Shown in pieces: positions 2,926-57,915 of a DNA stretch of 57,915 bases. Origin of the DNA: Deltaproteobacteria bacterium (GTDB lineage: Bacteria > Myxococcota > B64-G9); NCBI GenBank assembly GCA_019307065.1, contig JAFDKH010000005.1:1-57915 (forward strand), given 5' to 3'. Below the pieces are notes generated by a model. That model worked only from the letters and a program-made list of their open reading frames with translations. It was not told where the DNA came from and did no database searches. A program made the position numbers and the translations under genes. Numbering within the stretch: position 1 is the first letter of the stretch; the number at the start of each line of letters is the position of its first letter.

Positions 2926-2998
2926 CGGGCACTGCAGGATATTATTTCTGTTGCGCATACGGCATGATAAACACAGACAGGAATGTGAGGCTGGTCCC

Positions 2999-39235: not shown

Positions 39236-39583
39236 TCAATCGAACAGGCGACCGATCAGATGCAAGTTCATTTCGCTCAGATGGTAAATCAGAACGGCAT
39301 AGTAGACCATGAAGGCGACAAAAATTCCGATGACCGCCAGGGCGCGCTGCCGCAAGCGCCACAAGAGAATCGTCCCGAGAAACACCAGCGCCATTTTAAC
39401 ACTGATGAACAAGACCGGGTTGGCCTCAATCAATTGGGACATTAATGGGTTTGCCTCGGTGGCCCGCCCGGAAAAAACCCACATGATGGTCAGGATTCCA
39501 TCGATCACGTTGAGAATGATGGTTGTGGCTACTATGCCCTTGAGCCACTTGAAATGCTCTGGCGTTCCAATTTTCAACTTCAT
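39236..39583 (-). CDS. Small DUF5658-like membrane protein
   Basis: 115 residues with three or four hydrophobic segments. The pattern LNVIDGILTIMWVFSG ... ATEANPLM resembles the DUF5658 family of unknown function. It stands alone on the minus strand, convergent with the siroheme synthase, and has no obvious link to sulfur metabolism. Confidence 0.7.
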   Translation of the reverse strand: MKLKIGTPEHFKWLKGIVATTIILNVIDGILTIMWVFSGRATEANPLMSQLIEANPVLFISVKMALVFLGTILLWRLRQRALAVIGIFVAFMVYYAVLIYHLSEMNLHLIGRLFD

Positions 39584-39906: not shown

Positions 39907-40881
39907 ATGAAATCAGGCGGTAATCTTGAAGCGCTGTTAACAGCCGGACATTTTGCCATCACCGGCGAACTGGGTCCTCCCCGCGGAACCAATGTGGAAG
40001 CAGTCAAGAAAAAAGCCGCCCATCTGGTAGGCATGGTCGATGCGGTCAATATCACCGACAACCAGACCGCCGTGGTACGCATGGCAAGTTGGGCGACATC
40101 TTTACTGGTAATGAAAGAAGGCCTCGAGCCCAACTACCAGATGGTCTGCCGCGATCGCAATCGCCTGGCCATGCAGGCTGACTTGCTTGGCGCAACTGCT
40201 CTGGGCATTCCCAACTTATTGTGCCTGTCCGGTGACCACCAGAAGTTCGGCGATCATCCCAAGTCGAAAGGCGTCTTCGATCTCGACTCTATTCAACAAG
40301 TCGCCATGATCAAGCGCATGCGCGATGAGGGAAAATTTCTGGCGGGTGAAGACATCGACGTGCCGCCCAAGATTTTCATCGGGGCGGCCGCCAACCCTTT
40401 CGGCGAGCCCTTCGAATGGCGCGTACATCGCCTGGCAAAAAAAATCGCGGCCGGGGCCGATTTCATTCAGACCCAATGCATCTACAATATGAAGAAGTTC
40501 AAGCAGTGGATCGATCAGGCCAACGACATGGGCCTGACTGAAAAGGTCTATATCCTGGCCGGGGTGACCCCCTTCAAGAGCATCGGAATGGCTCGCTACA
40601 TGCAGAAGAACGTACCCGGCATGGACGTTCCCGAGCACATGATAAAAAGACTCAAGGGCGCCGGCAAAGGCAAAGTAGCCAAAGAAGGCATCAAGATCAC
40701 CTGCGAGCAGATCGAAGAGTTCAAAGAGATGAAAGGTGTTGCCGGGGTGCACCTGATGGCCATCGAGTGGGAACACAAGGTGCCCGCGATTGTCGAGCAA
40801 GCCAAGCTGTTGCCCCGTCCGACTGTCGCAAAAGCAAGCCTGCCCGAAACACCAGCGCCGGACGGGCCCGAGGTTAAGTGA
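39907..40881 (+). CDS. metF: Methylenetetrahydrofolate reductase, catalytic subunit
   Basis: 324 residues, a TIM-barrel MetF: the N-terminal ITGELGPPRGTNVEAV, NITDNQTAVVRMASWA, then LCLSGDHQKFGDHP and DFIQTQCIYNMKKFKQWID. It interconverts 5,10-methylene- and 5-methyltetrahydrofolate in the cytoplasm. The partner MetV is encoded three genes on, the arrangement of Wood-Ljungdahl MetFV enzymes and not of methionine-only MetF. Between them are a cytochrome b and an Fe-S protein, suggesting membrane-linked electron transfer. The stop overlaps the next start (TGATG). Confidence 0.93.
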   Translation: MKSGGNLEALLTAGHFAITGELGPPRGTNVEAVKKKAAHLVGMVDAVNITDNQTAVVRMASWATSLLVMKEGLEPNYQMVCRDRNRLAMQADLLGATALGIPNLLCLSGDHQKFGDHPKSKGVFDLDSIQQVAMIKRMRDEGKFLAGEDIDVPPKIFIGAAANPFGEPFEWRVHRLAKKIAAGADFIQTQCIYNMKKFKQWIDQANDMGLTEKVYILAGVTPFKSIGMARYMQKNVPGMDVPEHMIKRLKGAGKGKVAKEGIKITCEQIEEFKEMKGVAGVHLMAIEWEHKVPAIVEQAKLLPRPTVAKASLPETPAPDGPEVK

Positions 40882-41594
40882 TGTACGAATTCATCAGCGG
40901 GCCGATGGTGTGGATCTCTCTGGCCATTTTCCTGGGAGGCCTGGCCTTTCAAACTGTTCGCTTTTTCAGCCTGACCCGCAAGAAAGAACCGGTCTATCTA
41001 CCGCACAAGAAAAAACTCGGGGTCAAGGGCAAAGGCAAGCAAAAACAAAAAAAAGGCAACATTATTTTACGCCTGGTCGACTGGTCCGACCGCCTGTTCA
41101 CCACCAGTTACGAATATTTCCGCACCAGCGTAATCGGCAACCACCTGGTCATGAGTGGAGTCACGATCGTCTTTCATGTACTCCTGTTTGCTGTGCCACT
41201 GTTGTTACTGGCCCACAATTCGCTGATCAGAGAATCTATCGGGTTCAGTCTGCCGAGCCTGCCCGAATTCATCTCAGACTTCTTGACCCTGATCTTTTTA
41301 ATGTGCACATTTTTCTTTCTGGCTCGCAGGATTTTCGTCCGGCGGGTACGGGCTATCAGCAGCTTGTATGACATTTTCGTGCTATTGGTCACAATGACGC
41401 CGTTCTTGACCGGCTTCATTGCTTACCACCAGTGGTTTGATTTCAAAATCGTCATGACTGCGCATATTTTTTCGGGCGAATTGATGTTGATTGTGATTCC
41501 TTTTACCAAGCTGGGGCACATGCTCTTTTTCTTCTTCTATCGGTTCTTGATTCCAAGCGAGCACAGCTTTGGACAGGGCAAACGGGCCTGGTAG
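40881..41594 (+). CDS. TmcC/HmcE-like cytochrome b in the metFV operon
   Basis: 237 residues with about five hydrophobic helices and several paired histidines, of the NarI-like family. The N terminus MYEFISGPMVWISLAIFLGG is nearly the same as that of the TmcC protein at 52900 (MYEFVRGPLVWVAFAIFFGG), so the two are paralogs. A Lys-rich loop (KKKLGVKGKGKQKQKKGN) is extra. It probably binds heme b and passes electrons between quinone and the Fe-S protein encoded next. ATG 40881 overlaps the metF stop; a GTG one codon earlier is possible. Confidence 0.85.
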   Translation: MYEFISGPMVWISLAIFLGGLAFQTVRFFSLTRKKEPVYLPHKKKLGVKGKGKQKQKKGNIILRLVDWSDRLFTTSYEYFRTSVIGNHLVMSGVTIVFHVLLFAVPLLLLAHNSLIRESIGFSLPSLPEFISDFLTLIFLMCTFFFLARRIFVRRVRAISSLYDIFVLLVTMTPFLTGFIAYHQWFDFKIVMTAHIFSGELMLIVIPFTKLGHMLFFFFYRFLIPSEHSFGQGKRAW

Positions 41595-41625
41595 TAAAAA
41601 GCCTGGCTAGCTAGGGAGACGATTC

Positions 41626-42030
41626 ATGGGTGCCCAACAAAATCAGCCGGTCAAGACAGACCAGATAAAACGGCTGCTTAAACGCCAAAAGGGCAAGATG
41701 AAGTTACAGCTCTCGCACTGTGCGCATTGCTCGCTATGTGCCGAGAGTTGTTTCTTGTTCATGGCCAACGACAAAGAACCCGAGTACATGCCCTCATATA
41801 AAGTTATCTACTCAGTCGGCGTACTCTACAAAAAACGGGGCAAAGTTGATCGAGCGTTTCTTGAAAAGATTAAAAAAATCGTCTGGAAGAACTGCGTTCT
41901 TTGTGGGCGCTGTTATTGCCCGATCGGCGTCGACATTCCGGGCATGATTGCTTTGGCCAGGTCGGTCTGCCGCTCCCAGGGAGTGCATCCTGATTTCGAA
42001 GACCCCAAAAACCCGGAAAGCTGGCTGTAG
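41626..42030 (+). CDS. Short two-cluster Fe-S protein, TmcB/HdrC-like N-terminal module only
   Basis: 134 residues, matching only the ferredoxin part of TmcB (53559-54932): C32, C35, C38, C42 in CAHCSLCAESC, and C90, C93, C96, C98 in CVLCGRCYCPIGVDIP. The second set has one residue, not three, before the last cysteine. The CCG catalytic half of HdrD/TmcB proteins is absent and no remnant follows; metV is next. It is most easily read as an electron wire from the cytochrome b to MetV/MetF. Confidence 0.85.
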   Translation: MGAQQNQPVKTDQIKRLLKRQKGKMKLQLSHCAHCSLCAESCFLFMANDKEPEYMPSYKVIYSVGVLYKKRGKVDRAFLEKIKKIVWKNCVLCGRCYCPIGVDIPGMIALARSVCRSQGVHPDFEDPKNPESWL

Positions 42031-42072
42031 TGGGCATAAAGTGTCGCAAAAACGTGTTTACGGAGAAAAGCA

Positions 42073-42747
42073 ATGATCGTCGCTGAGATAAAACCAATAG
42101 ATGAAATTTTTGAACCAATTCACGAACTCGACAAGATTCTGATAATCGGATGTGGTGGCTGTACCTCGATATGTCTGGCCGGCGGCCAGAAAGAAGTCGA
42201 TAGCCTGGCAAACGAGCTGCGCGAAAGGATCAAGACCGGCGGCGGCACGATCGAAATTGACGAGTTCACCATCGAGCGACAGTGCAACGCCGATTTCTTC
42301 ATCGATCTGGACGCCATGCTGCCCGATTACCAGGCGGTGATTTCGATGGCCTGCGGCGCCGGAGTTCAATTCGTAGCCGACCGTTACCCGGACAAGCCGA
42401 TCTATCCGGCCCTGAACACTTCCTTCGTCGGGGTGGATCGCAACGTGGGTTGGTACGAGGAAAACTGCCGGACTTGCGGCGATTGTGTACTCGGCGAGAC
42501 CGGCGGGATCTGTCCGGTCACCCGTTGCGCCAAGAGCCTCTTCAACGGTCCTTGCGGCGGAACCAGAGCCGACGGCTCTTGCGAAATCGATCAAGAGATT
42601 CCGTGTGCCTGGTTCGAGATCCACGAACGCCTCAAGGCTCAGAATCGGCTCGAGCTAATTACCAAGGTGCGACCGGCCAGGGAGTGGGTCAACCAGTCCC
42701 GCCGGACGATTATTCAAGAAGCCTATAAAGAAAGATATTCGAAGTAG
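42073..42747 (+). CDS. metV: MetV, methylenetetrahydrofolate reductase small subunit
   Basis: 224 residues. N-terminal cysteines C27, C30 and C34 in GCGGCTSICLAGGQ and a second cysteine-rich part (CRTCGDCVLGETGGICPVTRC, then GPCGG and GSCEI) match the MetV family (methylene-THF reductase C-terminal domain type), which binds metal and/or Fe-S clusters and joins MetF to electron donors in acetogens. Here it is followed by hmcB, not by hdrABC-mvhD. It has a good ribosome site (GGAGAAAAG). Confidence 0.9.
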   Translation: MIVAEIKPIDEIFEPIHELDKILIIGCGGCTSICLAGGQKEVDSLANELRERIKTGGGTIEIDEFTIERQCNADFFIDLDAMLPDYQAVISMACGAGVQFVADRYPDKPIYPALNTSFVGVDRNVGWYEENCRTCGDCVLGETGGICPVTRCAKSLFNGPCGGTRADGSCEIDQEIPCAWFEIHERLKAQNRLELITKVRPAREWVNQSRRTIIQEAYKERYSK

Positions 42748-42773
42748 AGTTGTTCGTTGAAGGAGGTGCACCA

Positions 42774-43841
42774 ATGAGTATCTCTCGCAGGGGGTTCCTG
42801 AAAGGAGCGGCGGTCGGCACTTTGGCGGCCTCGACGGCTAAAGCCGCCGGAGGAAAGCACTTCACCGGCTACCCGGGGCGCAACGGCTTGTTGCATGACA
42901 CAACACTATGCGTCGGCTGCCGTTCGTGTGAAGTCGCCTGTGCAGCGGTCAACGACAACCCGCCCCCCAAGGTCGAGATAGGAAATCAAAAGATTTTCGA
43001 TGAAAAGCGAAGAACCACAGAGAATGACTACACGGTAGTCAACCGCTACAAAAGAGCCGAGGGAAACAAGCCGGCGGTCTATCGCAAGCACCAGTGCATG
43101 CACTGCAACGAACCCTGCTGCGCTTCGGTTTGTTTCGTAGATGCCTTTACCAAAACACCCGAGGGGCCGGTCCTGTATGATCCCGAGCTTTGCGTCGGCT
43201 GCCGTTACTGTGTATTTGCCTGCCCTTACAACGCTCTGGCCTACGAGTACGAAGATCCGCTGACTCCCCGCGTAGTCCGTTGTACGATGTGTTATCCGCG
43301 TATTAAAAAGGGCCTCAACCCGGCTTGTGCGGATGCCTGCCCGACCGGGGCCATTGTGTACGGCAAGCGCAAAGACTTGATTCGCCTGGCCGACGAGCGT
43401 ATTCGCAAATACCCCGAGCGTTACATCAATCACATCTTCGGTGAGCACGAGTGGGGCGGAACAAGCTGGCTTACCCTGGCCGGCATCCCGCTCAAAGAGA
43501 TGGATCTGCCCCAAAATGCAGGCCCCGAGCCGCTGCCCAACTTGACCACCGGGTTCTTGTCGCTGGCCCCGATTGTGGCGGCACTCTTCCCGGGACTGTT
43601 GGCCGGTGTGTATGCGTTTTCCAAACGAACAGACAATCTCAACCAGGCCGAAAAAGACAGTCTTTTGAACGAGGCCAAGGCAACCGCCGATCAGCAGCTT
43701 AAAGACGAGCTTGCCGCGGCAGAACACAAAGCCCAAAGAGACCAAGAGTATGCGATTAGTCTGGCAGTCAAAGACGCACTTAGAGAAGCGAAAAAGGCAG
43801 AAAGCGTTGCAGACGGGCCCTCTAAGGAGGAACCCAAATGA
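42774..43841 (+). CDS. hmcB: HmcB-like ferredoxin subunit with C-terminal membrane helix (metFV operon)
   Basis: 355 residues. A Tat-type start (SRRGFLKGAAVGTLAAST), four ferredoxin cysteine sets (CVGCRSCEVAC, CMHCNEPCCASVC, CVGCRYCVFACPYN, CTMCYPRIKKG) and a membrane helix near residue 270 (LSLAPIVAALFPGLLAGVYA). After the helix comes a Lys/Ala/Glu-rich coiled-coil tail of about 70 residues that should lie in the cytoplasm. It is a close paralog of the gene at 56470. ATG 42774 follows AGGAGGTG. The stop overlaps hmcC (ATGA). Confidence 0.9.
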   Translation: MSISRRGFLKGAAVGTLAASTAKAAGGKHFTGYPGRNGLLHDTTLCVGCRSCEVACAAVNDNPPPKVEIGNQKIFDEKRRTTENDYTVVNRYKRAEGNKPAVYRKHQCMHCNEPCCASVCFVDAFTKTPEGPVLYDPELCVGCRYCVFACPYNALAYEYEDPLTPRVVRCTMCYPRIKKGLNPACADACPTGAIVYGKRKDLIRLADERIRKYPERYINHIFGEHEWGGTSWLTLAGIPLKEMDLPQNAGPEPLPNLTTGFLSLAPIVAALFPGLLAGVYAFSKRTDNLNQAEKDSLLNEAKATADQQLKDELAAAEHKAQRDQEYAISLAVKDALREAKKAESVADGPSKEEPK

Positions 43842-45001
43842 ACCTGGCACCTGAATCGAAAGCCCAGTTGCTTACACCTTTCAATATCGTTGCCGGGCTG
43901 ATTTTGCTCTTCGGGGGCACGATAGTGGTTTTACGTTTCGCCTATGGGTTGAGCTTTGCCACCAACCTCGATCACACTACTACCTGGGGCCTGTGGACCG
44001 GTTTCAAACTGGTATTCGTAGCCCTGGCGGCCAGCGGCTATGCTTTAACTACGGCCGTTTATTTATTCGGCATGCATGAATACCATCCCCTGGTGCGCCC
44101 GGCGGTCTTGAGCGGATTTATGGGCTACACTTTGTTTATTCTCATTCTGATTTTCGATCTCGGCCGGGCCTGGAGGATTTACTACCCGTTCCTGGTTCAG
44201 CCGGGAACTACATCGGCCTTGTTCGAAATTGCATTATGCGTGGGCTTGTACTACACAACCCAGTTTCTCGAATTGACTCCGATCGGGTTCGAATGGCTGG
44301 GCTGGAAACGCTGGCGCAAGGTCTTCATCGCCGGCACGGTCGGCATGACGGTCTTCGGCCTGCTGCTCTCGATCTTGCACCAGTCCACCCTGGGGGCCTT
44401 GTTCTTGACCGTGCCCGGCAAGCTTCACCCTTTGTGGTATTCACCCTATATCCCCCTGCATTTTTTCATGTCAAGCGCCATGGGCGGAATTTCGATGGTG
44501 ATCATAGTCGGCTTGATCTGCAAGAAAGTTTTTGGTCACAAAATGGAGATCAGCCCCGAAAAACTGGACAAGCTGACCATCGGCCTGGCCAAGGGCGGGG
44601 CGATTGCCCTGGCCGCCTATTTCGGCGTCAAGCTGGTAGACATATCGATTGCCAACAAGTGGGAGTACCTGCTGACACCCTGGGGCATGTGGTACCTGCT
44701 TGAAATGCTCGGTTTTGTCTTGCTGCCCTGTTTGCTGTATGCGCATGGCTTCAGGGAGAAAAAGCCGCGGCTGATACGCTACACGGCTTTACTGACAATC
44801 ATAGGTATTGTGCTAAATCGGTTGAACATCGCAGTCGTCGCTTTCAACTGGAATCTTCCCCTCGAGCAAAGATACTTCCCGCACTGGATGGAGTACGTAG
44901 TGGTTGCCTTCTTGATAACTGTAGGAATTGTGGTGTTCCGCTGGGTCGCCCAGCGCATGCCCGTCGTCTACGATCATCCCGACTACAAGAGCTCGCACTA
45001 G
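43838..45001 (+). CDS. hmcC: HmcC-like NrfD-type membrane subunit (metFV operon)
   Basis: 387 residues with about ten helices, NrfD/PsrC family (TPFNIVAGLILLFGG, NLDHTTTWGLWTGFK, YHPLVRPAVLSGFMGY). It probably contacts menaquinone and pairs with the HmcB-like ferredoxin upstream. The partial gene at 57516 is its paralog. Start overlaps the hmcB stop by four bases. Confidence 0.92.
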   Translation: MNLAPESKAQLLTPFNIVAGLILLFGGTIVVLRFAYGLSFATNLDHTTTWGLWTGFKLVFVALAASGYALTTAVYLFGMHEYHPLVRPAVLSGFMGYTLFILILIFDLGRAWRIYYPFLVQPGTTSALFEIALCVGLYYTTQFLELTPIGFEWLGWKRWRKVFIAGTVGMTVFGLLLSILHQSTLGALFLTVPGKLHPLWYSPYIPLHFFMSSAMGGISMVIIVGLICKKVFGHKMEISPEKLDKLTIGLAKGGAIALAAYFGVKLVDISIANKWEYLLTPWGMWYLLEMLGFVLLPCLLYAHGFREKKPRLIRYTALLTIIGIVLNRLNIAVVAFNWNLPLEQRYFPHWMEYVVVAFLITVGIVVFRWVAQRMPVVYDHPDYKSSH

Positions 45002-45016
45002 AGCAGGGAGCCAGAC

Positions 45017-45148
45017 ATGTATCATACCCTTCAGGATTTCACCGCAAATGCCAAGGGCGTCTCGTACTTGATGGCGGCCCTTATATTGTCGGCCTTCATT
45101 CCTTTCTGGTTTTTCCTGACCAAAAAAGTCACCCGCAAGAAGAAGTAG
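45017..45148 (+). CDS. hmcD: HmcD-like 43-residue single-span membrane protein
   Basis: A very short gene: MYHTLQDFTANAKGVSYLMA, then ALILSAFIPFWFFLT and a basic end KKVTRKKK. One membrane helix with a positive cytoplasmic tail, size and position fit HmcD of the Hmc complex (directly after hmcC). GGGAG precedes the ATG by six bases, and it starts 15 bases after hmcC. Function unknown, probably a stabilising subunit. Confidence 0.8.
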   Translation: MYHTLQDFTANAKGVSYLMAALILSAFIPFWFFLTKKVTRKKK

Positions 45149-45204: not shown

Positions 45205-45558
45205 TCAGGCCAGGGCTTTTTCTACGGTTTTTACAAATTCCTCTGGATCGATGGGCTTGTCGAAGACAGCCACCGGTTCCTTGACTGCCAGATGCCGTCC
45301 GGCCAAACCACTCACGATAATAACCGGCGTCTTGCCCAATTCTTTGTCTTTTGACATTTTCCTGTAGAAGTCTGTGCCGGTTTGGTTCGGCATCTGCAGA
45401 TCGAGGATTACCAGATCCGGCTTCTCTTGCTTGGCAATCTCGAGGGCCTTTAAGCCATCCTCTGCAGTAACCGTTTGGTAGCCTTCCTTTTCGAGAACTG
45501 TTGTGAGGAATTTCCTGATATCTGCTTCATCATCTACGATGAGAATTTTTTTGCTCAT
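45205..45558 (-). CDS. Stand-alone response regulator receiver
   Basis: 117 residues: ILIVDDEADI, phosphoacceptor D53 in VILDLQMPN, VSG and FDKPID. The ATG at 45558 is chosen for the GGAGG site before it. It is the last gene of the minus-strand run that begins with the DsrM-like gene. It follows the PAS kinase by 60 bases and is similar to the receiver upstream of that kinase (47066); both have the unusual FDKPI ending. Confidence 0.9.
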   Translation of the reverse strand: MSKKILIVDDEADIRKFLTTVLEKEGYQTVTAEDGLKALEIAKQEKPDLVILDLQMPNQTGTDFYRKMSKDKELGKTPVIIVSGLAGRHLAVKEPVAVFDKPIDPEEFVKTVEKALA

Positions 45559-45618
45559 AGTTTCCTCCACAAGATTGAACCCGAATTTGTCGAAGCTAGC
45601 TTGCATTTCCAACGTTTG

Positions 45619-48313: not shown

Positions 48314-49921
48314 CTAGTGAAATTCCCACTCGTGAAATCCCTCTTTTACGTCAACCATCGCATTGACGACCAACTCCACCAGGCCGCCGTACATGATCCG
48401 GGCCCGTTCCCAAGCCTTATAGTACGTCAAAAGATCTCGAATCTGTCCCTTGCAGTTGGAACATGGCGCACAAACATACTTGTTGATACTCGGATCGATG
48501 CTGTCCTGGAAGGCGTTTATGATCTGCTCGAATTTCTTACGACCTGCAATCCGCATGCGCCAATCGGGAAAGTTATTCGACTGCATGATAGCAAAGCCGC
48601 TTCCGCCGCCGCAACAGTAATTGTTTACCCCGTGGGGATGCATCTCCCTGAACTGGGGGCAAATCTTCTTGAGCACATTCCGCTGCGGCTGAACGATACC
48701 CATCGACCTGACCACGTTGCAGGGATCGTGCAGGGTGACCGGAAAATCGTTTCGCGACGGATCGACCATGACTTTTTCATTGCAAACCAGGTCTTCCATC
48801 AGAGTCAGCGCGCTCTCCCTGGGAATATTCGACTCGGCCACCCACATCCGGTCGCCGGTAGCCATAAAAGCTTTGTGGGCATGACCGCACTCGCCCATGA
48901 CGACTTTCTTGACTCCGAGTTTCTTGGCAACCTCAGCATGCTTCAAAGTAACCCGGGCGTACTGAATATCGTCGTAGAACAAACCGTAGTTGACCGAATC
49001 ATAGCCGACCAGATCGCTCGATATGGTCCAGCTCAAACCGGCGATCTCAAATAGTATCGCGAACGCCTCGAGATTCTCAGGCCATGAAAGAAACTCGCCG
49101 GCGTTGTGCATAATCAGAATATCGGCCCCGGCTTTGTCAATCGGAATCTTGATTTTCATCCCGATTCGGTCTTCTATATCTTCTTCAGCAAACTCGAGAA
49201 TATCCATCAAGGCGTGCGGATTAACGCCTGTCGAAGAACCAACTGAAATTTGCTTCACGGTTCCATCAGAATGCAGCTCATCGGGTGCGATTCCCATTTC
49301 TTGGCTGAACAATTTCCTTATTTCTCTGGTGATCAGAGCGTTGTCGATCCCCATCGGACAATGTTGGGCGCATCGCCGACACAAAGTACATCTATAAGCA
49401 AGGTCGGCCAGGCGCGCAACAGTTTCCCAAGTCACCTTGACATCGGCGCCGGTTAGTTTGCCAAACAGCCGGCTGATTGGAGAGCGCTGCCTCTGGGCTA
49501 TGCGCCGCAACAGATCAGCCCTGAAAAGCGGGCGGTAGATCTCCGCCCGACCGCTCGACTCGAAAACCGGACAGGCATCGGCGCAGGTGTTGCATTTGAC
49601 GCAGTTCTCAATTGAGAGCAAAAATGGCTGCAAGAATGTCCAGTTGTTTTCTTTAGAAAACAGTTTTTCCAGACCGGCCAGAAACTTCTGAACAAGTTCT
49701 TCCTTTTCCTGGTCTGTTTTGGGAATCGGAATTTTCACGCCGACTATACCATCCAGAGATGTCTCCAGCTTGGCGGCTTTCTCTTCGGGTATTTCCGAGA
49801 TTGGTTCATCTACCCAGTCTTCATAGGGCGGGGGCAACTTGGGGATATCGTTGACATCTAGATCAACCAACTTTTCCGCCGGGCGGCTGAGATCCGAAAT
49901 CGTGGTCAAACCGGCTTTCAT
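48314..49921 (-). CDS. DsrK/HdrD-like iron-sulfur oxidoreductase (second copy)
   Basis: 535 residues. Ferredoxin motifs CVKCNTCADACPVF and CTLCRRCAQHCPMG, then catalytic CCG-type parts HDPCNVVRSMG and YCCGGGSGF, and CAPCSNCKGQ. It is similar to DsrK (31559) along its length (GECGHAHKAFMA), but its N terminus is different and no dsrJOP partners follow. With the cytochrome b encoded just before it, it forms a DsrMK-like pair like those found in bacteria and archaea without DsrJOP. The substrate could be DsrC, another thiol protein or a small disulfide. Confidence 0.9.
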   Translation of the reverse strand: MKAGLTTISDLSRPAEKLVDLDVNDIPKLPPPYEDWVDEPISEIPEEKAAKLETSLDGIVGVKIPIPKTDQEKEELVQKFLAGLEKLFSKENNWTFLQPFLLSIENCVKCNTCADACPVFESSGRAEIYRPLFRADLLRRIAQRQRSPISRLFGKLTGADVKVTWETVARLADLAYRCTLCRRCAQHCPMGIDNALITREIRKLFSQEMGIAPDELHSDGTVKQISVGSSTGVNPHALMDILEFAEEDIEDRIGMKIKIPIDKAGADILIMHNAGEFLSWPENLEAFAILFEIAGLSWTISSDLVGYDSVNYGLFYDDIQYARVTLKHAEVAKKLGVKKVVMGECGHAHKAFMATGDRMWVAESNIPRESALTLMEDLVCNEKVMVDPSRNDFPVTLHDPCNVVRSMGIVQPQRNVLKKICPQFREMHPHGVNNYCCGGGSGFAIMQSNNFPDWRMRIAGRKKFEQIINAFQDSIDPSINKYVCAPCSNCKGQIRDLLTYYKAWERARIMYGGLVELVVNAMVDVKEGFHEWEFH

Positions 49922-50841
49922 TTCTCGACCTCCTTCTCCTGCTCAACATGTGTGCCTACATGTGCCCAGGACTTGCCGGTTTGGATATGCGGACCGGCCC
50001 ATTTCATCCGATACTCGAAAGCCTCTTTCAGCCGCGCCTCAATCTTGCCGCCCCTAAAATTCGGCTCGTCGGACCAGCGCACATCATGGTACAGAAAGTA
50101 CTTGGAAACAAAATGCGCCATGCGTGTCATTGGGATATAGGCGAACAACAATGAAGCCAGGATGATCTCAACCTGCATACCGGTCGACATGGGCATCGGC
50201 GCACTGAAAGTAAACAGAGAATAGATATACATGACCGGCATGCCGAACCAGGGGTCGGAGGATAGGTGGACTATCAGAGCTACTACCACAACCGACAGAA
50301 TCGCCAACAGATTGATGAACTCAAGCGGTACACTGTAACGTCGCAAGTCGGCATTCAGGGCCCGTCTGAATAATAGCCCCAGGCAGCCCAGGGCGGTCAG
50401 GCCCAGACCAGCGTAGCCCAGGCCGGCGGCCAGGTAGCGAATGAGGGTGCCGAAGCCTCCCCCCAGTGAGACACCAATTGCAGCCAGGAAAGCCGCCAAG
50501 GCCAACACCCCTAACCAGCCAATCAAAAGATAGAGCCCGAAGTGAAAAGGAAAAGAGACCCACCAAAGCGGACGATTGTGCTCGAAGACGCCTTTCAAAA
50601 AGATAATCTCCGTGAACATTACCTTTATTTCATTAATCCGGTCTTTTTGCCTGGGCTTGTTCCACCACTCAAACTCCTCAAAGTACGAACCACCGTAATC
50701 GGCCCGGCCCTTCTCGTGGGCTACCGGGTACAATTCCCAACGCAAGTGGATTGGTGTCTTGAGATATTTAACGACCCGCCCAATCACGAATCCCAGAAAT
50801 AACAAAAGACAGATGTATGTCAGAACCTGGATGGCTTCCAT
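49918..50841 (-). CDS. DsrM-like cytochrome b subunit (second copy)
   Basis: 307 residues with five or six helices, NarI/DsrM-like (LTYICLLLFLGFVIGRVVKY at the N terminus; PMPMSTGMQVEIILASLLFA near the end) and histidines suited to heme b. It is translationally coupled to the DsrK-like gene (ATGA overlap), so both should form one menaquinol-linked complex. It starts 40 bases after the Rrf2 gene on the same strand. Confidence 0.9.
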   Translation of the reverse strand: MEAIQVLTYICLLLFLGFVIGRVVKYLKTPIHLRWELYPVAHEKGRADYGGSYFEEFEWWNKPRQKDRINEIKVMFTEIIFLKGVFEHNRPLWWVSFPFHFGLYLLIGWLGVLALAAFLAAIGVSLGGGFGTLIRYLAAGLGYAGLGLTALGCLGLLFRRALNADLRRYSVPLEFINLLAILSVVVVALIVHLSSDPWFGMPVMYIYSLFTFSAPMPMSTGMQVEIILASLLFAYIPMTRMAHFVSKYFLYHDVRWSDEPNFRGGKIEARLKEAFEYRMKWAGPHIQTGKSWAHVGTHVEQEKEVEK

Positions 50842-50881: not shown

Positions 50882-51328
50882 TCATTTTATTTTTTTCAAT
50901 TCGTCACGAACTCTTTTGGGCCATTTGTTGTCTATGATGTCGGCCAGTGAGTACTCATCGAGCACCTGGTTGATTTTGTGATTGATTAACGACCATAGTC
51001 CCTGGCAGTTACAAAAGTCTGAATTTATACAGGTTTCTGGCTCAACTGCACATTCGGTAACGGCAATCGGGCCGATAGCTGCCTCAATTATATCACCAAT
51101 CTTGATTTCGTCTGCGCTTCGGGCGAGCGTATACCCACCGCCGCGACCGGAGAGTGCTCGCAATAATCTTGCGTTCCGCAGAGAACCAACCAGCTGCTCC
51201 AGGTATCCTTTCGAGACACCGCATTGCTTAGAAACATCTCCCAAACCAACATGAACTCCATCTGATGATAGCTTGGCAATGGCCATCATCATGCGCATGG
51301 AGTACCTGGCCCGTGTGCGCAACTTCAC
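50882..51328 (-). CDS. Rrf2/IscR-family regulator with Fe-S-type cysteines
   Basis: 148 residues. Winged helix at the N terminus (RYSMRMMMAIAKL, SKGYLEQLVGSLRNARLL, GRGGGYTLAR) and cysteines C93, C100, C106 and C108, close to the IscR cluster site (Cys-Cys-Cys-His). It probably senses Fe-S or redox state. The family was named after the repressor linked with the hmc operon of Desulfovibrio vulgaris, and here it lies between a DsrMK-like operon and a Tmc/Hmc operon. A large dyad just upstream is a candidate operator. Confidence 0.92.
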   Translation of the reverse strand: MKLRTRARYSMRMMMAIAKLSSDGVHVGLGDVSKQCGVSKGYLEQLVGSLRNARLLRALSGRGGGYTLARSADEIKIGDIIEAAIGPIAVTECAVEPETCINSDFCNCQGLWSLINHKINQVLDEYSLADIIDNKWPKRVRDELKKIK

Positions 51329-51616: not shown

Positions 51617-52885
51617 ATGTCAGGCCAGAAAGATTGGAACTGGGAAGCCGGAAAGAAGGAAGTTGCCAATTTGGCTCTCCTAAAAGACCAGTTTTTTGCC
51701 GTTCACGAGTTCGCTGTCAGCCCTGACGGCGAAAAAATCGCTGTTCCCGTCCAGAAGGCCGAAGAGACCTGTAACGTCTGGGTTAACGACAAGCTTTGGG
51801 AAGAAGAGATGGAACGGGCCTGGAACCTGCGCTTCACCAGGGACGGTCGCCTGATCGCCCTTGTTCGGGTTGACGACGCCTGGACAGTCGCAATCGATGG
51901 TAAGCGCTGGGAGAACGAGTATGATTTCGTCTGGGATCTGAAACTAAGTCTCGACGAGAAAGTGATCGCTGTTTTAGCAAAACGAGGCATGGAATACATC
52001 GTGCTGGCCAACGACAAAGCCTGGGAAAACGGCTTCATCTCCATGCGCGACTACGTCCTCAGTGATGACGGCCGGAAAATTGCCGCAACCGTCCAGGTTG
52101 AAAAACTGGCCGAAGGCGACATATTCAAATTCGCCGAAGGAACCTGGAGTGTGGCCCAAGACGGTATTGCCTGGGACCAGAAATTTATCAATGTTTACTC
52201 TCCAAGATTCACTCCCGACGGGTCCCATCTGGCGGCCCAGGTTCGCACTGACATCTGCGAATACACCGTTGCCCAGGACGGAGAACCCTGGAAAAACAAA
52301 TTCGGCAGCACCTGGGAACCGCTCTATCGCTCGAACGACAAGGGCCCGCTCGTGCCCGTGCGTATCGGCGGAGCCTGGACCCTGGCCGAGAACGGAAGCC
52401 CCATATGGGCCGGTCGTTATGTTCAACTGTGGCACCAGAAAGTAAGCCCGGACAAGCAGCATATTGCCGCCGTGGTCGCCACGGGTTTCGGCCGCTGGAC
52501 GATCGCCGTCGACGACACCCCCTGGGCGGTCACTTTCGAAGACCTGGTGCTCCCGCCTGTTTTTTCGCCGGACGGCAAGCGCCTGGCAACGATCGGCAAG
52601 AACGGCGAGGAATGGTTTGTTGTCGTAGATGGGCAGCAGTGGTCACTTCCGTTCGACATGGCCTGGAACCCTGTTTTCAGTCCGGACGGCAAAACAGTCG
52701 CGGCCAAAGTCGAACGCGAGGGATGCCTAGCCTACGCACTCAACGGCAGACTCTGGAGCCCGAAGTTCGAAATGCTGTGGGATCCGATATTCAGTCCCGA
52801 CGGCAAGCAGCTGCTGATTCGGGGTGTTGAAAATGGCAAATACTACCGACAGGTAGTGCCTTTGGACAAAATCAAGAACGGCTGA
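51617..52885 (+). CDS. tmcD: TmcD-like tryptophan-rich beta-propeller protein
   Basis: 422 residues built of about nine repeats of the type FSPDGKxxA followed by a W-x-V-x-x-D-x-x-x-W strand pattern, which suggests a WD40-like propeller. Tryptophans are very frequent. No signal peptide, so cytoplasmic. The Tmc complex of Desulfovibrio includes a tryptophan-rich subunit TmcD of this sort, role unknown. AAGGAG precedes the ATG. It is the first gene of the tmcDCB-hmcABC run. Confidence 0.85.
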   Translation: MSGQKDWNWEAGKKEVANLALLKDQFFAVHEFAVSPDGEKIAVPVQKAEETCNVWVNDKLWEEEMERAWNLRFTRDGRLIALVRVDDAWTVAIDGKRWENEYDFVWDLKLSLDEKVIAVLAKRGMEYIVLANDKAWENGFISMRDYVLSDDGRKIAATVQVEKLAEGDIFKFAEGTWSVAQDGIAWDQKFINVYSPRFTPDGSHLAAQVRTDICEYTVAQDGEPWKNKFGSTWEPLYRSNDKGPLVPVRIGGAWTLAENGSPIWAGRYVQLWHQKVSPDKQHIAAVVATGFGRWTIAVDDTPWAVTFEDLVLPPVFSPDGKRLATIGKNGEEWFVVVDGQQWSLPFDMAWNPVFSPDGKTVAAKVEREGCLAYALNGRLWSPKFEMLWDPIFSPDGKQLLIRGVENGKYYRQVVPLDKIKNG

Positions 52886-52899
52886 GTGAGGGTAACCGC

Positions 52900-53547
52900 A
52901 TGTATGAATTCGTTCGAGGTCCGCTGGTCTGGGTGGCCTTCGCCATTTTCTTCGGTGGCTGCCTGTACAAACTCATAACCATGTTTATCGGAGCCCATAA
53001 GGAAAAATCCGTTCTTCCAACCTGGAACGCTAAATACGGATTTCGCTCACTGCTGTACTGGATGATTCCTTTCTTGAGTCGCAACACCAGGCTGCATCCG
53101 GTAATGACAATGGTTTCGTATGTCTTTCACTTGTGTCTCCTGCTTACGCCATTGTTCGTCATGGGTCACGCCGTTTTGTGGCAAGAGTCCTGGGGCATCA
53201 GCTGGTGGAGCCTGCCTCCCTGGCTGGCAGATGTCACCACCCTGGTAGTTATTGGCGGGGCCTTGTTCTTTGCCCTGCGACGGATCGCCGCCCCCGAGGT
53301 TAGAAATGTTACAACCTGGAAAGACTTCTTGCTTCTGATAATCGTAGTAGCACCTTTTGTTACCGGGCTGATGGCCCACCAGCACTGGCTGCCATACAAG
53401 ACGATTGTGATCGTACACATCGTCACCGGGGTCGTGTGGTTGATAGCCATTCCTTTTACCTGGCTGTCACACATGTTCTGGTTCGTTTTCACGCGCTCAT
53501 ACATGGGCAGTGAGTTCGGCGCGGTACGCAATGCAAGAGATTGGTGA
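52900..53547 (+). CDS. tmcC: TmcC/HmcE-like cytochrome b
   Basis: 215 residues with about five helices and histidines in membrane segments (HPVMTMVSYVFHLCLL, HIVTGVVWLIAIPFTWLSHM), NarI-like. It would carry heme b and link the periplasmic cytochrome and/or quinone to TmcB. The N terminus is almost shared with the protein at 40881. It starts 14 bases after tmcD. Confidence 0.9.
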   Translation: MYEFVRGPLVWVAFAIFFGGCLYKLITMFIGAHKEKSVLPTWNAKYGFRSLLYWMIPFLSRNTRLHPVMTMVSYVFHLCLLLTPLFVMGHAVLWQESWGISWWSLPPWLADVTTLVVIGGALFFALRRIAAPEVRNVTTWKDFLLLIIVVAPFVTGLMAHQHWLPYKTIVIVHIVTGVVWLIAIPFTWLSHMFWFVFTRSYMGSEFGAVRNARDW

Positions 53548-53558
53548 GGGAAAACAGC

Positions 53559-54932
53559 ATGGCTGATTTAGCAGACGCTCAGGTAGTCGATCCCGGCATT
53601 GATGAGACAATCAAGAAACTCACTCCGGAGCGAATCGAAGAAGTCATCAACCAGGTTTTAACGAAGGAAACCGCTGCCCGCTTCAAGGTCTATTTACAGA
53701 CATGTGTTCACTGTGGTCTGTGTTCCGACGCTTGTCATACATATCTGTCACGCGACAAGGATCCGGATTTTGCTCCGGTCGCCAAGGTCAAAGACACTAT
53801 TTGGGAAATGATCAAGCGCAAGGGTAAAGTCGATGGCGAGTTCATCAAGAAATGCGCGCGGATCGCCTTTACCGAATGCGGTGTCTGCCGGCGTTGCAGC
53901 ATGTATTGCCCCTTCGGGATCGACATCGCATATCTGATGATGACCGTCCGGCGTATTTGCAGTCTGCTGGGAGTTGTTCCGCAATACCTTCAGGATACAA
54001 CCAACAGTCACGCCGCCACTATGAACCAGATGTGGGTCCAGCAAGACGACTGGATCGACACTCTGATATGGCAGGAGGAAGATGCCCGCGACGAGCTGGA
54101 AGGCGTCCGCATTCCGTTAGACCGTGAAGGGGCCGAGATAATGTACTCGGTGATTGGTCCCGAGCCCAAGATTCTGGCCCAGCTGATCGCCAACATGGCC
54201 ATTATTTTCAAGGTCGCCAAGGCCGACTGGACAATGCCAAGTCTCGACGGCTGGGACAACAGCAATATGGCCATGTACTCTGGGGATTTCGAAGTAATGG
54301 GCCGGGTCGAGCGGCTGCACTGGGATCGCGCCGTGCAGCTCAAGGTCAAGAAAGTAGTCATGGGCGAATGCGGCCACGCCTTTCGGGGTGCTGTCTACGA
54401 CGGCCCCAAGTGGCTGGGCTGGAAGAGACCTCCGATTAAAATGGTTCACGCCGTGGAGTACTATTACGAACTTTTAAAATCCGGCCGGATCAAGATAACC
54501 AACAAGGTTAAAGAACCGGTTACAGTTCAAGATCCCTGCAACATCGTTCGCGGCCGGGGCTTGCATCAGAAGCTGCGCTACATCATGAATGAACTATGCG
54601 AGGATTTCCGTGATGTAGATCCCAGGTTCGAACACAACTATTGTTGCGCAGCCGGGGGCGGTGTAATCAATTGCGGCCCGCCCTGGAAGCTATCACGCAT
54701 GAAGAGCATCCGGGTCAAGGCCGAACAATTCGCCGAAACCGGCGCCGACTTGATCGTAACTCCGTGTCACAACTGTCACAGTGGAATCGAAGATATCGTT
54801 GGGCATTACAAACTGGGTATGCACGTCAAATTCATTAGTGAACTTCTTGTAAAAGCAATCGATCTGGGTCAGGACAAGCAAGAAGCTGCAGAAAATAGCA
54901 TAAAGCAGCCCAGCGCAGAGGTGCCGGCATGA
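53559..54932 (+). CDS. tmcB: TmcB/HmcF-like HdrD-type iron-sulfur protein
   Basis: 457 residues. C49, C52, C55, C59 in CVHCGLCSDACH and the second ferredoxin set CGVCRRCSMYCPFG are followed by the CCG catalytic region (QDPCNIVRGRGL, YCCAAGGGVI, CHNCHSGI). It sits on the cytoplasmic side and should reduce or oxidise a disulfide-type partner, possibly DsrC-like, by analogy with HdrD and DsrK. ATG 53559 has GAGGG upstream; a GTG six codons earlier would overlap tmcC. The stop overlaps the next start. Confidence 0.93.
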   Translation: MADLADAQVVDPGIDETIKKLTPERIEEVINQVLTKETAARFKVYLQTCVHCGLCSDACHTYLSRDKDPDFAPVAKVKDTIWEMIKRKGKVDGEFIKKCARIAFTECGVCRRCSMYCPFGIDIAYLMMTVRRICSLLGVVPQYLQDTTNSHAATMNQMWVQQDDWIDTLIWQEEDARDELEGVRIPLDREGAEIMYSVIGPEPKILAQLIANMAIIFKVAKADWTMPSLDGWDNSNMAMYSGDFEVMGRVERLHWDRAVQLKVKKVVMGECGHAFRGAVYDGPKWLGWKRPPIKMVHAVEYYYELLKSGRIKITNKVKEPVTVQDPCNIVRGRGLHQKLRYIMNELCEDFRDVDPRFEHNYCCAAGGGVINCGPPWKLSRMKSIRVKAEQFAETGADLIVTPCHNCHSGIEDIVGHYKLGMHVKFISELLVKAIDLGQDKQEAAENSIKQPSAEVPA

Positions 54933-56473
54933 CATCCTCTACCCGAAAAGAAATCGTACTACGTTTTGGCCTGGCATTCATTGTAGTGCTGTTCGCGGTC
55001 GTGCTGAGAATGGGCTGTATCATTATGCCTGAAGAAGAAACGGCAATCGCTGGTGCGGGTACTATTTCATTGAAACTACCAGACGAAATCAACCAGTTCC
55101 CGGCCCAATACAACGATCTCAGGCGCCCCCCGGTAAGGTTCGATCATGCTGACCACGTTGAAGCCTTCGCAGACGAAGGCTGCCAGAAGTGTCATCTTTT
55201 CGACAATGCAAAAAATTTGATCCCCAAGTTCATGAGGTCCAATGATGATCTAGATCGAGATGCACTGACCGAGCACTACCACTCCAAGTGCCTCGATTGC
55301 CACAAGCAGGCCCAAAAAGAGGCCCCGCAGGCTTGCGGCGAGTGTCATCTCTACTGGACCGAACCACCTTCTAACTGGATTGAGATATCCTTCGACTATT
55401 CTCTCCATCACCGACACGTATCGGCCATGAACAAAGAATGTCAGGCCTGTCACCATGTCTATGACGAAAAAGAAAAGAAACTCATTTACAAAAAAGAGAC
55501 CGAGTCGGCTTGCAGCGATTGCCACGGCCAGCAGGACGAGGATAAGAACCTTTCTTTACGCAATGCTGCTCACACGAATTGCATAACTTGTCATCTGAAA
55601 CGCTCACAAGCAAAGCAAACGGCCGGCCCCATGTTGTGCACGGGTTGTCACGCTGCCGAAAAGCAAAAAACCATCGAGATCTTGGCCTACACCCCGCGCC
55701 TTGAACGCGGTCAGCCTGACACAACCTGGATACAGTCTCCCGAAGCCAAATCCCGGCTTGTACCATTCAACCACAAGCTCCATGAGCTCGCCTCGTCCTC
55801 CTGCTCGAGCTGTCACCACAAGACTCTTAAAGCTTGCGCCGAGTGTCATAAGCTGGCTGTGACCGGAGAAGACGGGGCGGTAACCCTGGAAAGGGCTTAC
55901 CACCAGGCCTCCTCAGAACACAGTTGTGTGGGCTGTCACAAGACCACGACCGACTCGAAAACCTGCGCGGGCTGCCATTCCAGCATGATGCCGCCGCCCG
56001 GGCAGACCGCCTGTAATATCTGCCATAGCGGACCGTTGCCCGAAAAGAATAAAGAGCCGATTGCAGCGCCGGTCGCAGTCGAGATGGAACATGACGAACT
56101 ACCGGCCTCTTCGGATGATTTTCCCGAGGAAGTCCTGATCGACTTTCTGGCCAAAGAATACGAGCCGGCAAAGTTTCCCCATAGGAAAATTGTCACTCAG
56201 CTCGACAAGCTGGCCCGCGACAGCCGGCTGGCTCGCCGGTTCCACTCCTACCCCGATACATTGTGTGCCGGCTGCCACCATCGCAGCCCGGTGGGCACCC
56301 GCCCTGCACCGTGCAGTTCTTGTCACGACCAGGAGGGTCTGGCCACCCAGGACAAACCGGATCTCTTCAGCGCCTATCACCGGCAATGTCTTGGCTGTCA
56401 TCAACAGATGGGCCTGAGCCAGCAGGGCTGCACCGACTGCCACGCTGAGACATCAAGGGCGGTGTCCAAATGA
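54929..56473 (+). CDS. hmcA: HmcA-like sixteen-heme cytochrome c
   Basis: 514 residues with exactly sixteen CXXCH motifs, from CQKCH (85-89) to CTDCH near the C terminus, the number known for HmcA of Desulfovibrio. An N-terminal hydrophobic stretch (IVLRFGLAFIVVLFAVVLR) exports or anchors it in the periplasm. The residues before the cysteine at 30 do not form a good lipobox. It would collect electrons from periplasmic cytochromes, hydrogenases or formate dehydrogenases and hand them to the HmcB/HmcC subunits encoded next. It overlaps tmcB by four bases. Confidence 0.93.
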   Translation: MTSSTRKEIVLRFGLAFIVVLFAVVLRMGCIIMPEEETAIAGAGTISLKLPDEINQFPAQYNDLRRPPVRFDHADHVEAFADEGCQKCHLFDNAKNLIPKFMRSNDDLDRDALTEHYHSKCLDCHKQAQKEAPQACGECHLYWTEPPSNWIEISFDYSLHHRHVSAMNKECQACHHVYDEKEKKLIYKKETESACSDCHGQQDEDKNLSLRNAAHTNCITCHLKRSQAKQTAGPMLCTGCHAAEKQKTIEILAYTPRLERGQPDTTWIQSPEAKSRLVPFNHKLHELASSSCSSCHHKTLKACAECHKLAVTGEDGAVTLERAYHQASSEHSCVGCHKTTTDSKTCAGCHSSMMPPPGQTACNICHSGPLPEKNKEPIAAPVAVEMEHDELPASSDDFPEEVLIDFLAKEYEPAKFPHRKIVTQLDKLARDSRLARRFHSYPDTLCAGCHHRSPVGTRPAPCSSCHDQEGLATQDKPDLFSAYHRQCLGCHQQMGLSQQGCTDCHAETSRAVSK

Positions 56474-57519
56474 GCTTCTCCAGAAGAGGTTTCATAAAAG
56501 GGATTGCTGCGGGAACTCTGGCCGCCGGCTCGGCCAAGGCCGCCGGGGGTTATCATGAGTTCGCCGGATATCCCGACGGCTATGGCTTGCTGCACGACAC
56601 TACTCTGTGCGTGGGCTGTAGATCTTGTGAGGTCGCCTGTAAACAAGTGAACGATCTGCCCCCGCCCGAAGTCCCGCTGCACGATAAGTCGATCTTCGAA
56701 AATAAACGCAGGCCGACAAAAGACGATTACACCGTCGTCAATCGCTACAAGCCGGCCACAGAAGATCAGCCGGCCGTATTTCGCAAACTACAATGCATGC
56801 ACTGTCAAGAACCGGCTTGCGCAACAGTTTGTTTTGTAAACGCGTTTACAAAAACGCCCGAAGGGCCGGTGCTTTACGATCCCAGCGTTTGCGTAGGCTG
56901 TCGCTACTGTGTGATGGCATGTCCCTACTATGCCCTGAGCTACGAGTACGACAAACCATTCGAGCCCCGAGTCGTGCGCTGCACGATGTGCTATCCGCGC
57001 ATCAAGAAAGGGCTCAAGCCCGGATGTGCCGCCGCCTGCCCGATGGGCGCAATCAAGTACGGTAAGCGCAAGGACTTGATCAAGTTGGCCCGTGAGCGAA
57101 TTCGCAAGCAGCCTCAACGTTACATCAACCATGTCTACGGCGAACATGAATTCGGCGGCACCAGTTGGCTGGTGATTGGAGGAACGTCCTTCAAAGAACT
57201 CGGCCTGTTCGAAGGAGTCACCTCCAAGTCGATGCCGGAAATGGGTAGCGGTTTCTTGTCGGTGGTTCCGTTGGTTGTCACCATCTATCCTGGTCTCTTG
57301 GCCGGGTTCTACGCTTTTTCCAAGCGCAAAGAAAAACTCGCCAAAAACGAAAAGGAATCTGCTGTCAATGATGCTTTGACAAAAGCCGACGAGGAAACCA
57401 AGAAGAAACTTTCCGAGGCAGCCGGCAAGGCCAAAAAGGACAAGGAAAAAGCGATTGCTCAGGCTGTCAAGAAAGCACTCGATGAGGCCCAGCAAGCCGG
57501 AAAGGAGGAAACCAAATGA
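56470..57519 (+). CDS. hmcB: HmcB-like ferredoxin subunit with C-terminal membrane helix (tmc/hmc operon)
   Basis: 349 residues. Tat-type start (SRRGFIKGIAAGTLAAGS), four ferredoxin sets (CVGCRSCEVAC, CMHCQEPACATVC, CVGCRYCVMACPYY, CTMCYPRIKKG), a membrane helix (FLSVVPLVVTIYPGLLAGFY) and a highly charged coiled-coil tail (KEKLAKNEKESAV ... AKKDKEKAI). Nearly the same as the gene at 42774. It should pass electrons from the 16-heme cytochrome to HmcC. Start and stop both overlap neighbours by four bases. Confidence 0.93.
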   Translation: MSFSRRGFIKGIAAGTLAAGSAKAAGGYHEFAGYPDGYGLLHDTTLCVGCRSCEVACKQVNDLPPPEVPLHDKSIFENKRRPTKDDYTVVNRYKPATEDQPAVFRKLQCMHCQEPACATVCFVNAFTKTPEGPVLYDPSVCVGCRYCVMACPYYALSYEYDKPFEPRVVRCTMCYPRIKKGLKPGCAAACPMGAIKYGKRKDLIKLARERIRKQPQRYINHVYGEHEFGGTSWLVIGGTSFKELGLFEGVTSKSMPEMGSGFLSVVPLVVTIYPGLLAGFYAFSKRKEKLAKNEKESAVNDALTKADEETKKKLSEAAGKAKKDKEKAIAQAVKKALDEAQQAGKEETK

Positions 57520-57915
57520 GTCAGTCTCCTGCGGCATCGAATCGTCTGTTTACTCCTTTCAATGTCATCGCCGGTATTATTCTGGCCGGCGGTGCAGTCA
57601 TTGGCCTGATGCGCTTTACCCTCGGTCTGGGCGCCACCACTAATCTGACCGACAACACGCCCTGGGGGCTGTGGATCGGCTTCGACGTAATGACCGGGGT
57701 AGCCCTGGCCGCCGGAGGCTTTGTGATTTCTTCGGCTGTCTATCTGTTTGGAATGAAAGAGTACAAACCGATTGTCAGACCGGCTATCTTGACCGGTTTC
57801 CTGGGATACGCCCTGGTGGTCGTAGGATTGCTGGTAGACCTGGGTCGCCCCTGGCGTCTGCCTTATCCTTTTATTGTTCAGGCGGGGCCATCTTCTGCCT
57901 TGTTCGAAATGGCTC
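57516..57915 (+). CDS. hmcC: HmcC-like NrfD-type membrane subunit, N-terminal part (runs off window)
   Basis: The first 133 codons are present: SQSPAASNRLFTPFNVIAG, a first helix, NLTDNTPWGLWIGFD, then YKPIVRPAILTGFLGYALVV and LVDLGRPWRLPYPFI. This matches the N-terminal third of the HmcC-like protein at 43838. GGAGG lies before the ATG, which overlaps the hmcB stop. The reading frame is still open at the window end. Confidence 0.92.
   Translation, partial: MSQSPAASNRLFTPFNVIAGIILAGGAVIGLMRFTLGLGATTNLTDNTPWGLWIGFDVMTGVALAAGGFVISSAVYLFGMKEYKPIVRPAILTGFLGYALVVVGLLVDLGRPWRLPYPFIVQAGPSSALFEMA

Follow-up and report, generated by a model that had tools for sequence, protein, structure and literature searches.

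A putative membrane-anchored methylene-tetrahydrofolate reductase related to the Tmc complex in sulfate reducers and relatives

Known systems and the operon in question

Published methylene-tetrahydrofolate (methylene-THF) reductases fall into four classes, namely MetF alone, MetVF, MetVF-RnfC2 and MetVF-HdrCBA-MvhD (PMC8760232, PMC9430772). We analyzed a stretch of 57,915 nucleotides (the window) from a Deltaproteobacteria bacterium (GTDB lineage Bacteria; Myxococcota; B64-G9; GCA_019307065.1, contig JAFDKH010000005.1, positions 1 to 57,915), in which an operon of seven genes at 39907-45148 on the + strand combines metF and metV with genes for parts of Tmc- and Hmc-type membrane complexes. 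Judged from its genes and their relatives, this operon likely encodes a Wood-Ljungdahl methylene-THF reductase that is anchored in the membrane and exchanges electrons with a periplasmic cytochrome c, perhaps also with menaquinone.

The operon shares with type II MetVF of acetogens (PMC8760232) the MetF and MetV core, which belongs to the same families and is encoded by genes lying together. The type II enzyme was purified from the cytoplasm and uses reduced ferredoxin as donor in vitro (PMC8760232), whereas the operon adds a cytochrome b and a TmcB-type iron-sulfur (Fe-S) protein. As for type III (MetVF-RnfC2), no RnfC-like match was found among the six family-matched genes of the operon (the seventh encodes 43 amino acids, aa). 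Type IV is found in Moorella thermoacetica and Sporomusa ovata, and Thermacetogenium phaeum has a comparable cluster (PMC9430772, PMC6895022); in type IV MetVF is tied to an Hdr-type relay and proposed to be energy-conserving. The initial annotation of the operon took the partners of acetogen MetFV to be soluble, which is too strict, since MetVF with HdrCBA-MvhD is partly membrane-bound in S. ovata, where its membrane-integral partner 'could not be identified' (PMC9430772). The type IV relay consists of HdrCBA with MvhD, whereas that of the operon is a TmcB stump, and the gene of the presumed membrane partner, the TmcC-like protein, belongs to the operon itself; hdrCBA and mvhD are absent from 39907-45148. 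A metVF cluster resembling type IV does occur on another contig of the same genome (C52, locus L004, 2037-10032), where the metFV pair lies beside long HdrA-like, HdrB-, HdrC- and MvhD-like genes, and a further metFV pair (C203, L005, 2732-7993) lies beside glycolate-oxidase-like FAD and Fe-S genes (both by eye).

Likeness to the Tmc complex (TmcABCD) lies in the TmcC-like cytochrome b, the Fe-S part of TmcB and, in most relatives read, a TmcA-like tetraheme cytochrome. Unlike Tmc, the gene set has no CCG (HdrD-like) half and would carry MetFV as its cytoplasmic head, the window operon has no TmcD, and the lineage of the window has HmcA or nothing in the place of TmcA. With the Hmc complex (HmcABCDEF) the operon shares HmcB-, HmcC- and HmcD-like proteins and a cytochrome b and an Fe-S protein related to HmcE and HmcF, but HmcF is cut to its Fe-S part, HmcA is missing from the window copy, MetFV is added, and the HmcB, HmcC, HmcE and HmcF matches stay under curated equivalog scores. 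The conserved unit thus looks like a Tmc complex with MetFV as cytoplasmic head.

In the literature, metF-HdrABC has been described in the sulfate-reducing partners of anaerobic methanotrophic archaea (PMC10553843), the main text of a comparison of 43 Desulfobacteraceae genomes contains neither 'methylene' nor 'MetV' (PMC11887813), and papers on D. autotrophicum and D. multivorans list extra Tmc copies. No description of the gene set was found in the open-licence papers searched, and an earlier description may exist. With somewhat less assurance than for the operon itself, we think it probable that the set represents a fifth class of methylene-THF reductase not described before, a methyl-THF oxidoreductase integral to the membrane whose partner is periplasmic cytochrome c (or menaquinone). 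This class would be widely used by Wood-Ljungdahl sulfate reducers and relatives and would act as a coupling site in acetate oxidation and in autotrophy.

Gene content of the operon

As initially annotated, seven genes lie in series on a single strand, with two 4-bp overlaps (metF/TmcC-like and hmcB-like/hmcC-like) and otherwise gaps of 15-42 bp. The first gene, metF (39907-40881), encodes the catalytic subunit (PF02219, 128 bits, cut-off 24) and the fourth, metV (42073-42747), the second subunit (PF12225, 119 bits, cut-off 23; this family, DUF5981, is named 'Methylene-tetrahydrofolate reductase C terminal'), so both Pfam families that mark the MetVF type are present within one operon. Between them lie the gene of a TmcC-like cytochrome b membrane subunit (40878-41594, GTG start; NF045723 TmcC, 174 bits, cut-off 240; NF045716 HmcE, 146 bits, cut-off 275) and that of a short Fe-S protein of 134 aa with two cysteine motifs (41626-42030). 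The latter covers only positions 38-154 of 457 in NF045711 (HmcF; 103 bits, cut-off 750) and 22-137 of 430 in NF045724 (TmcB); it is the N-terminal part of TmcB/HmcF, and the CCG (HdrD-like) half is absent. The coverage of these NCBIfam models agrees with the earlier suggestion of a TmcB homolog trimmed to its Fe-S part and followed by MetV.

After metV come, with a gap of 26 bp and no hmcA between, an hmcB-like gene for a 4Fe-4S subunit that is probably periplasmic (42774-43841; Fer4_11; NF045715 HmcB, 404 bits vs cut-off 420; TAT_signal PF10518, 22.4 bits, slightly under its cut-off of 22.7), an hmcC-like gene for an NrfD-type membrane subunit with a possible menaquinone site (43838-45001; NF045714 HmcC, 474 bits vs cut-off 550; PF03916 NrfD, 53 bits), and an hmcD-like gene for 43 aa with a single hydrophobic segment by hydropathy (45017-45148). 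The hmcD-like protein has no Pfam match; a stretch 78% identical to it is found after hmcC in L022/L029. Every Tmc/Hmc match of the operon stays under the curated equivalog cut-off in the NCBIfam scan. The list of open reading frames (ORFs) for 39907-45148 contains no TmcA-type tetraheme ORF and no tmcD-like ORF.

For comparison, the cluster tmcD-tmcC-tmcB-hmcA-hmcB-hmcC at 51617-57914 (+ strand; hmcC is cut by the window end), whose layout is as the initial annotation had it, has the same arrangement with a complete TmcB (716 bits) and a multiheme HmcA (461 bits) by NCBIfam; tmcC, tmcB, hmcA and hmcB were family-scanned, and tmcD and hmcC were named from position and sequence. This cluster is itself a Tmc/Hmc hybrid, in which hmcA and hmcB-hmcC come after tmcD-tmcC-tmcB and replace tmcA.

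Conservation of the gene set

We searched the genome_contigs collection (by its description one genome per species, 84,980 species) with an alignment of five short Fe-S proteins of this module. The scan gave 116 confirmed relatives, and the best 80 of them were analyzed (all survey counts out of 80 below refer to these), with ORFs annotated by BLAST against the window proteins. As the Fe-S protein was the sole basis for choosing loci, the remaining genes count as independent evidence; the loci themselves share ancestry and do not represent independent samples. The genome sets consist largely of draft assemblies. A tmcC gene lies within 2 kb of the Fe-S gene in 78/80 loci, metV within 2.5 kb in 79/80, and metF (at least 60% identity) within 3.5 kb in 54/80 (on the opposite strand in L039). 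The commonest orders are metF-tmcC-fdx-cyt4-metV (23 loci) and cyt4-metV-tmcC-fdx-metF (16), where fdx is the short Fe-S gene and cyt4 a tetraheme cytochrome gene, followed by tmcC-fdx-cyt4-metV (9) and cyt4-metV-tmcC-fdx (8); the rest are fewer. Because metV stays so close in loci selected by the Fe-S protein and across several gene orders, the linkage is more than chance.

Closer to the window, a search with the TmcC-like protein gave matches at E <= 0.001 in 6/58 genomes (own included), four of the others scoring above 200 bits. These four relatives have the order metF-tmcC-fdx-metV-hmcA, then hmcB and hmcC where the contig is long enough, and the same five genomes are those in which the Fe-S profile exceeds 200 bits among 195 genomes of the window's phylum. 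Cultured sulfate reducers with the module include Desulfoluna species, Desulfosarcina widdelii, Desulfosarcina cetonica and Desulfocicer vacuolatum. Chance or an assembly artefact was rejected as an explanation, since the set recurs in independent assemblies, in isolates and in two complete chromosomes (L054, L105). Occurrence in this genome only, which the initial annotation had named as a sign against its proposal, was rejected as well, the Fe-S scan having placed the module in many other genomes.

Sequence signatures of the module proteins

The second cysteine motif of the short Fe-S protein reads CxxCxRCYC in 81/81 module proteins (followed by P in 79, not in 2). It is two residues shorter than the control motif CxxCxxCxxxCP, which was found in 9/9 TmcB/DsrK/HdrD-type proteins, none of which has CxxCxRCYC (0/9). 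Six matches of about 140 bits with frames of 450-500 aa (L159-L163, L166) had been candidates for Fe-S/MetV fusions, which was rejected on reading them: each is a complete tmcB with tmcC and a tetraheme gene beside it. The short frame in genome G459 is a tmcB cut off by the contig end.

In the TmcC-like protein, histidines H100, H113, H196 and H214 are kept in at least 78/79 module proteins and in 7/7 canonical TmcC; these four would match the pair of heme-binding sites in NarI-type cytochromes. The match to NarI is weak (E 0.0025). A quick tree with 47 rows (module rows being the window and every second locus that passed the length filter) separates 36 module rows from 9 canonical TmcC with a Shimodaira-Hasegawa-like approximate likelihood ratio test (SH-aLRT) support of 98; the module side also includes a divergent tmcC beside acs-like genes in genome G322.

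MetV, which according to the literature carries Fe-S centres and zinc, has 13 cysteines that are invariant across 40 aligned module MetV sequences, and no MetV match was found in the six canonical Tmc loci taken for comparison. A tail motif of MetV, EWxNQ, was rejected as a module signature, being present in 34/79 only.

MetF within and outside the module

The window MetF is 77-86% identical to the same-operon MetF of four relatives; the MetF proteins that two further clusters of its own genome encode are 57-58% identical to it. MetF was searched for in 13 genomes, nine of which carry loci without an adjacent metF; in 8/9 of these the best MetF is 74-78% identical to that of the window and lies outside the fetched flank. 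A quick MetF tree separates 54 linked and 16 further rows from 8 other rows (SH-aLRT 100), where 'linked' is defined by the 60% limit, 30/32 'other' MetF-like ORFs below 40% identity, some of them near the module, were dropped, and four of the 16 further rows are the same genes as linked rows. The 8 other rows include the two other MetF of the window's genome. MetF-like ORFs below 60% identity are found within 3.5 kb in 19 loci. A second, distant MetF-like ORF (about 34-38% identical) lies within 3.5 kb in L031, L033-L035, L038, L040, L041, L044, L057 and L071, which are mostly of Syntrophaceae type.

These data bear on a reading by co-regulation only, according to which MetFV is a soluble enzyme like that of clostridia, while the unit of TmcC, Fe-S protein and cytochrome feeds or drains a separate soluble carrier, e.g. 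ferredoxin. It would fit with the acceptance of reduced ferredoxin by soluble MetVF in vitro (PMC8760232) and with the fact that metF can be unlinked. However, in nearly all 80 loci metV lies near the genes of the Fe-S protein and cytochrome b despite rearrangements, the module Fe-S proteins are short and without the catalytic half of TmcB, and MetF, TmcC and the Fe-S protein are each of a module-specific type; we regard mere co-regulation as unlikely.

Probable cytochrome partners

A multiheme cytochrome c (at least three CxxCH) is encoded within 4.5 kb in 72/80 loci, with four CxxCH in 58 loci, 16 in nine, 17 in two, and five, six and seven in one locus each (the one with seven is cut by a contig end). 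For the tetraheme gene, TmcA was the best NCBIfam match in 8/8 tested, one of them above the cut-off. Matches to hmcB are found in 11/80 loci (one a fragment) and to hmcC in 7/80, some other loci ending at a contig edge, and hmcB/hmcC-like genes are confined to the types with 16 or 17 hemes, except for the fragment match in L099. The initial annotation had counted hmcBCD as part of the module, which holds for the window and a few branches but not as a common core, the tetraheme cytochrome being what 58/80 loci have. Similarly, it had noted the missing hmcA, which is correct for the window copy but is not a trait of the arrangement, as a multiheme hmcA follows metV in 6/6 relatives with the window arrangement (L022-L025, L032, L043; one cut by a contig end). 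Given the tetraheme cytochrome and the restricted distribution of hmcB/hmcC, the conserved electron partner appears to be a periplasmic cytochrome c, with menaquinone as a possible one.

Were menaquinone the actual partner, oxidation of methyl-THF would reduce it at TmcC or HmcC and the cytochrome would be a side entry. The window copy, with an NrfD-type HmcC and no cytochrome gene, would suit such a route, the step from methyl-THF (about -200 mV) to menaquinone (-74 mV, PMC8578096) is downhill, and in T. phaeum a quinone analogue supported methyl-THF oxidation, at a low 4-24 mU/mg (PMC6895022). Set against this is the rarity of hmcB and hmcC compared with the multiheme cytochrome, and we hold menaquinone as the main partner to be possible but doubtful.

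A further gene pair lies between the operon and the comparison cluster, at 48314-50841 (- strand), and encodes an HdrD-like protein (535 aa) overlapping a DsrM/HmeC-like membrane protein (307 aa); an apparent Rrf2-type regulator (50882-51328) adjoins it. In L032, relatives of this pair come after the module hmcD.

Link to the Wood-Ljungdahl pathway

The initial annotation made its proposal depend on Wood-Ljungdahl genes in the organism, and these are present: contig C345 of the same genome carries cooS, acsB, acsC, acsD, an acsE-like gene (226 bits, cut-off 259) and folD together. It had also asked whether the module tracks with the genes of carbon monoxide dehydrogenase/acetyl-CoA synthase (CODH/ACS), and the survey shows such a linkage. 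The acs genes are found in the fetched flank of 13/80 loci, several of them directly upstream, although in five of the 13 (L038, L041, L044, L057, L071) the acsB/acsC relatives are only 38-44% identical; acsE ends 78-122 bp before the module metF frame in L033, L037 and L040 (120 bp in L040). Among 395 genomes from the phylum of G058 (Desulfosarcina widdelii), ACS is present in 29/32 genomes with the Fe-S gene vs 223/363 without (Fisher p = 8e-4, kinship ignored; the Fe-S gene was called from the profile at E <= 1e-55 alone, not from its neighbours). In the window's own family, 4/4 genomes with the module and 2/5 without have ACS, and it is also present in G020 and in 11/11 further module genomes. 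A second short CdhC-like ORF (261 aa, 43 bits) lies away from the ACS operon of the window's genome (L007, G000:C71:6922-7281), and similar short matches are seen in several module genomes.

The proximity to acs genes could also mean that the membrane unit serves another Wood-Ljungdahl protein, e.g. in the reductive activation of the corrinoid protein, with MetV as an adaptor. Several loci come directly after acsE, and in L164 (G322:C34, 1464-5187) acsC- and acsE-like genes (by eye) are followed by a divergent tmcC and a short Fe-S gene, and no match to MetV turned up in the 11 kb read there. This is a single divergent case against the near-constant metV of the 80 loci, and we consider the corrinoid function very improbable.

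Proposed electron transfer and its weighing

The proposal of the initial annotation, that the head of an HdrD-type complex was swapped for MetFV, stands in so far as the Fe-S part of TmcB is kept and MetFV replaces the HdrD-like half, but the inclusion of hmcBCD is not general. The swap is backed by the conservation in many genomes, the Fe-S signature, the module-specific groups of MetF and TmcC, and the linkage with CODH/ACS. In such an enzyme, MetF would hold the flavin and react with methyl-/methylene-THF, MetV would receive the electrons via its Fe-S centres, and the short Fe-S protein, as the remnant of TmcB, would bridge MetV to the cytochrome b TmcC, which would pass electrons through the membrane to a multiheme cytochrome c in the periplasm (a TmcA-like one with 4 hemes in most members, the 16-heme HmcA in relatives of the window). 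In branches with hmcBC, electrons may also pass to HmcB/HmcC and perhaps menaquinone. We speculate that the window copy, which has HmcBC and no cytochrome of its own, draws on menaquinone or on HmcA from the adjacent cluster. The assembly into a single complex, this sequence of carriers and the reversibility are inferred.

The methylene-/methyl-THF couple has an E0' of about -200 mV (PMC6895022, PMC9430772), too positive for NAD+ as acceptor; NAD+ (-320 mV) is described as a poor acceptor of methyl-THF electrons and H2 (-414 mV) as a good donor (PMC9430772). In the oxidative direction, when acetyl-CoA is oxidized, methyl-THF would be oxidized with menaquinone or, helped by the membrane potential, periplasmic cytochromes as acceptors. 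In the reductive direction, when CO2 is fixed, electrons from periplasmic H2 or formate would reduce methylene-THF, and electrons flowing in from the oxidation of periplasmic H2 would carry charge inward, build a proton gradient and conserve energy. The methyl step of the acetyl-CoA pathway may thus be coupled directly to the energy-conserving membrane. The gene set offers a candidate membrane partner whose gene accompanies those of MetFV and is conserved, cultured sulfate reducers included; if correct, the proposal explains how complete oxidizers dispose of methyl-THF electrons at -200 mV and gives the autotrophic direction a way of conserving energy.

Several observations weigh against the proposal of a membrane-anchored reductase. 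No metF is found within 3.5 kb in 26/80 loci, and nowhere in genome G064 does a MetF exceed 60% identity. Eight of the 80 loci have no cytochrome, in some cases because the contig ends, but the flanks of L093, L094 and L106 are long enough for one; the window operon also lacks its own cytochrome c gene. Three of the 32 genomes with the Fe-S gene (G073, G236, G237) have no ACS, in agreement with a second model, and 61% of the genomes without the Fe-S gene do have it, so the pathway can run without the module. No MetV/Fe-S fusion was noticed, with no systematic search made for one. Finally, the predicted structures of MetV and the Fe-S protein gave no Foldseek match in the PDB at E <= 0.001, the single-chain models being mediocre (mean predicted local distance difference test score 73-74) and uninformative.

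Other features of the window

The operon is flanked on the - strand by a DUF5658 gene (39236-39580) and a response regulator (45205-45612); as both neighbours are on the opposite strand, the gene set stands alone. No RNA family in the window reached its gathering score. Judged by eye, the ORF sequences of the remaining window resemble a sulfate-reducer core with sat, aprBA, qmoABC, dsrAB and dsrMKJOP. At 217-2799 (- strand) there is a SulP-type sulfate permease with a STAS part and, from its sequence, an apparent C-terminal response-regulator receiver domain; next to it lie sensor kinases and another protein with a receiver domain (2762-4210).

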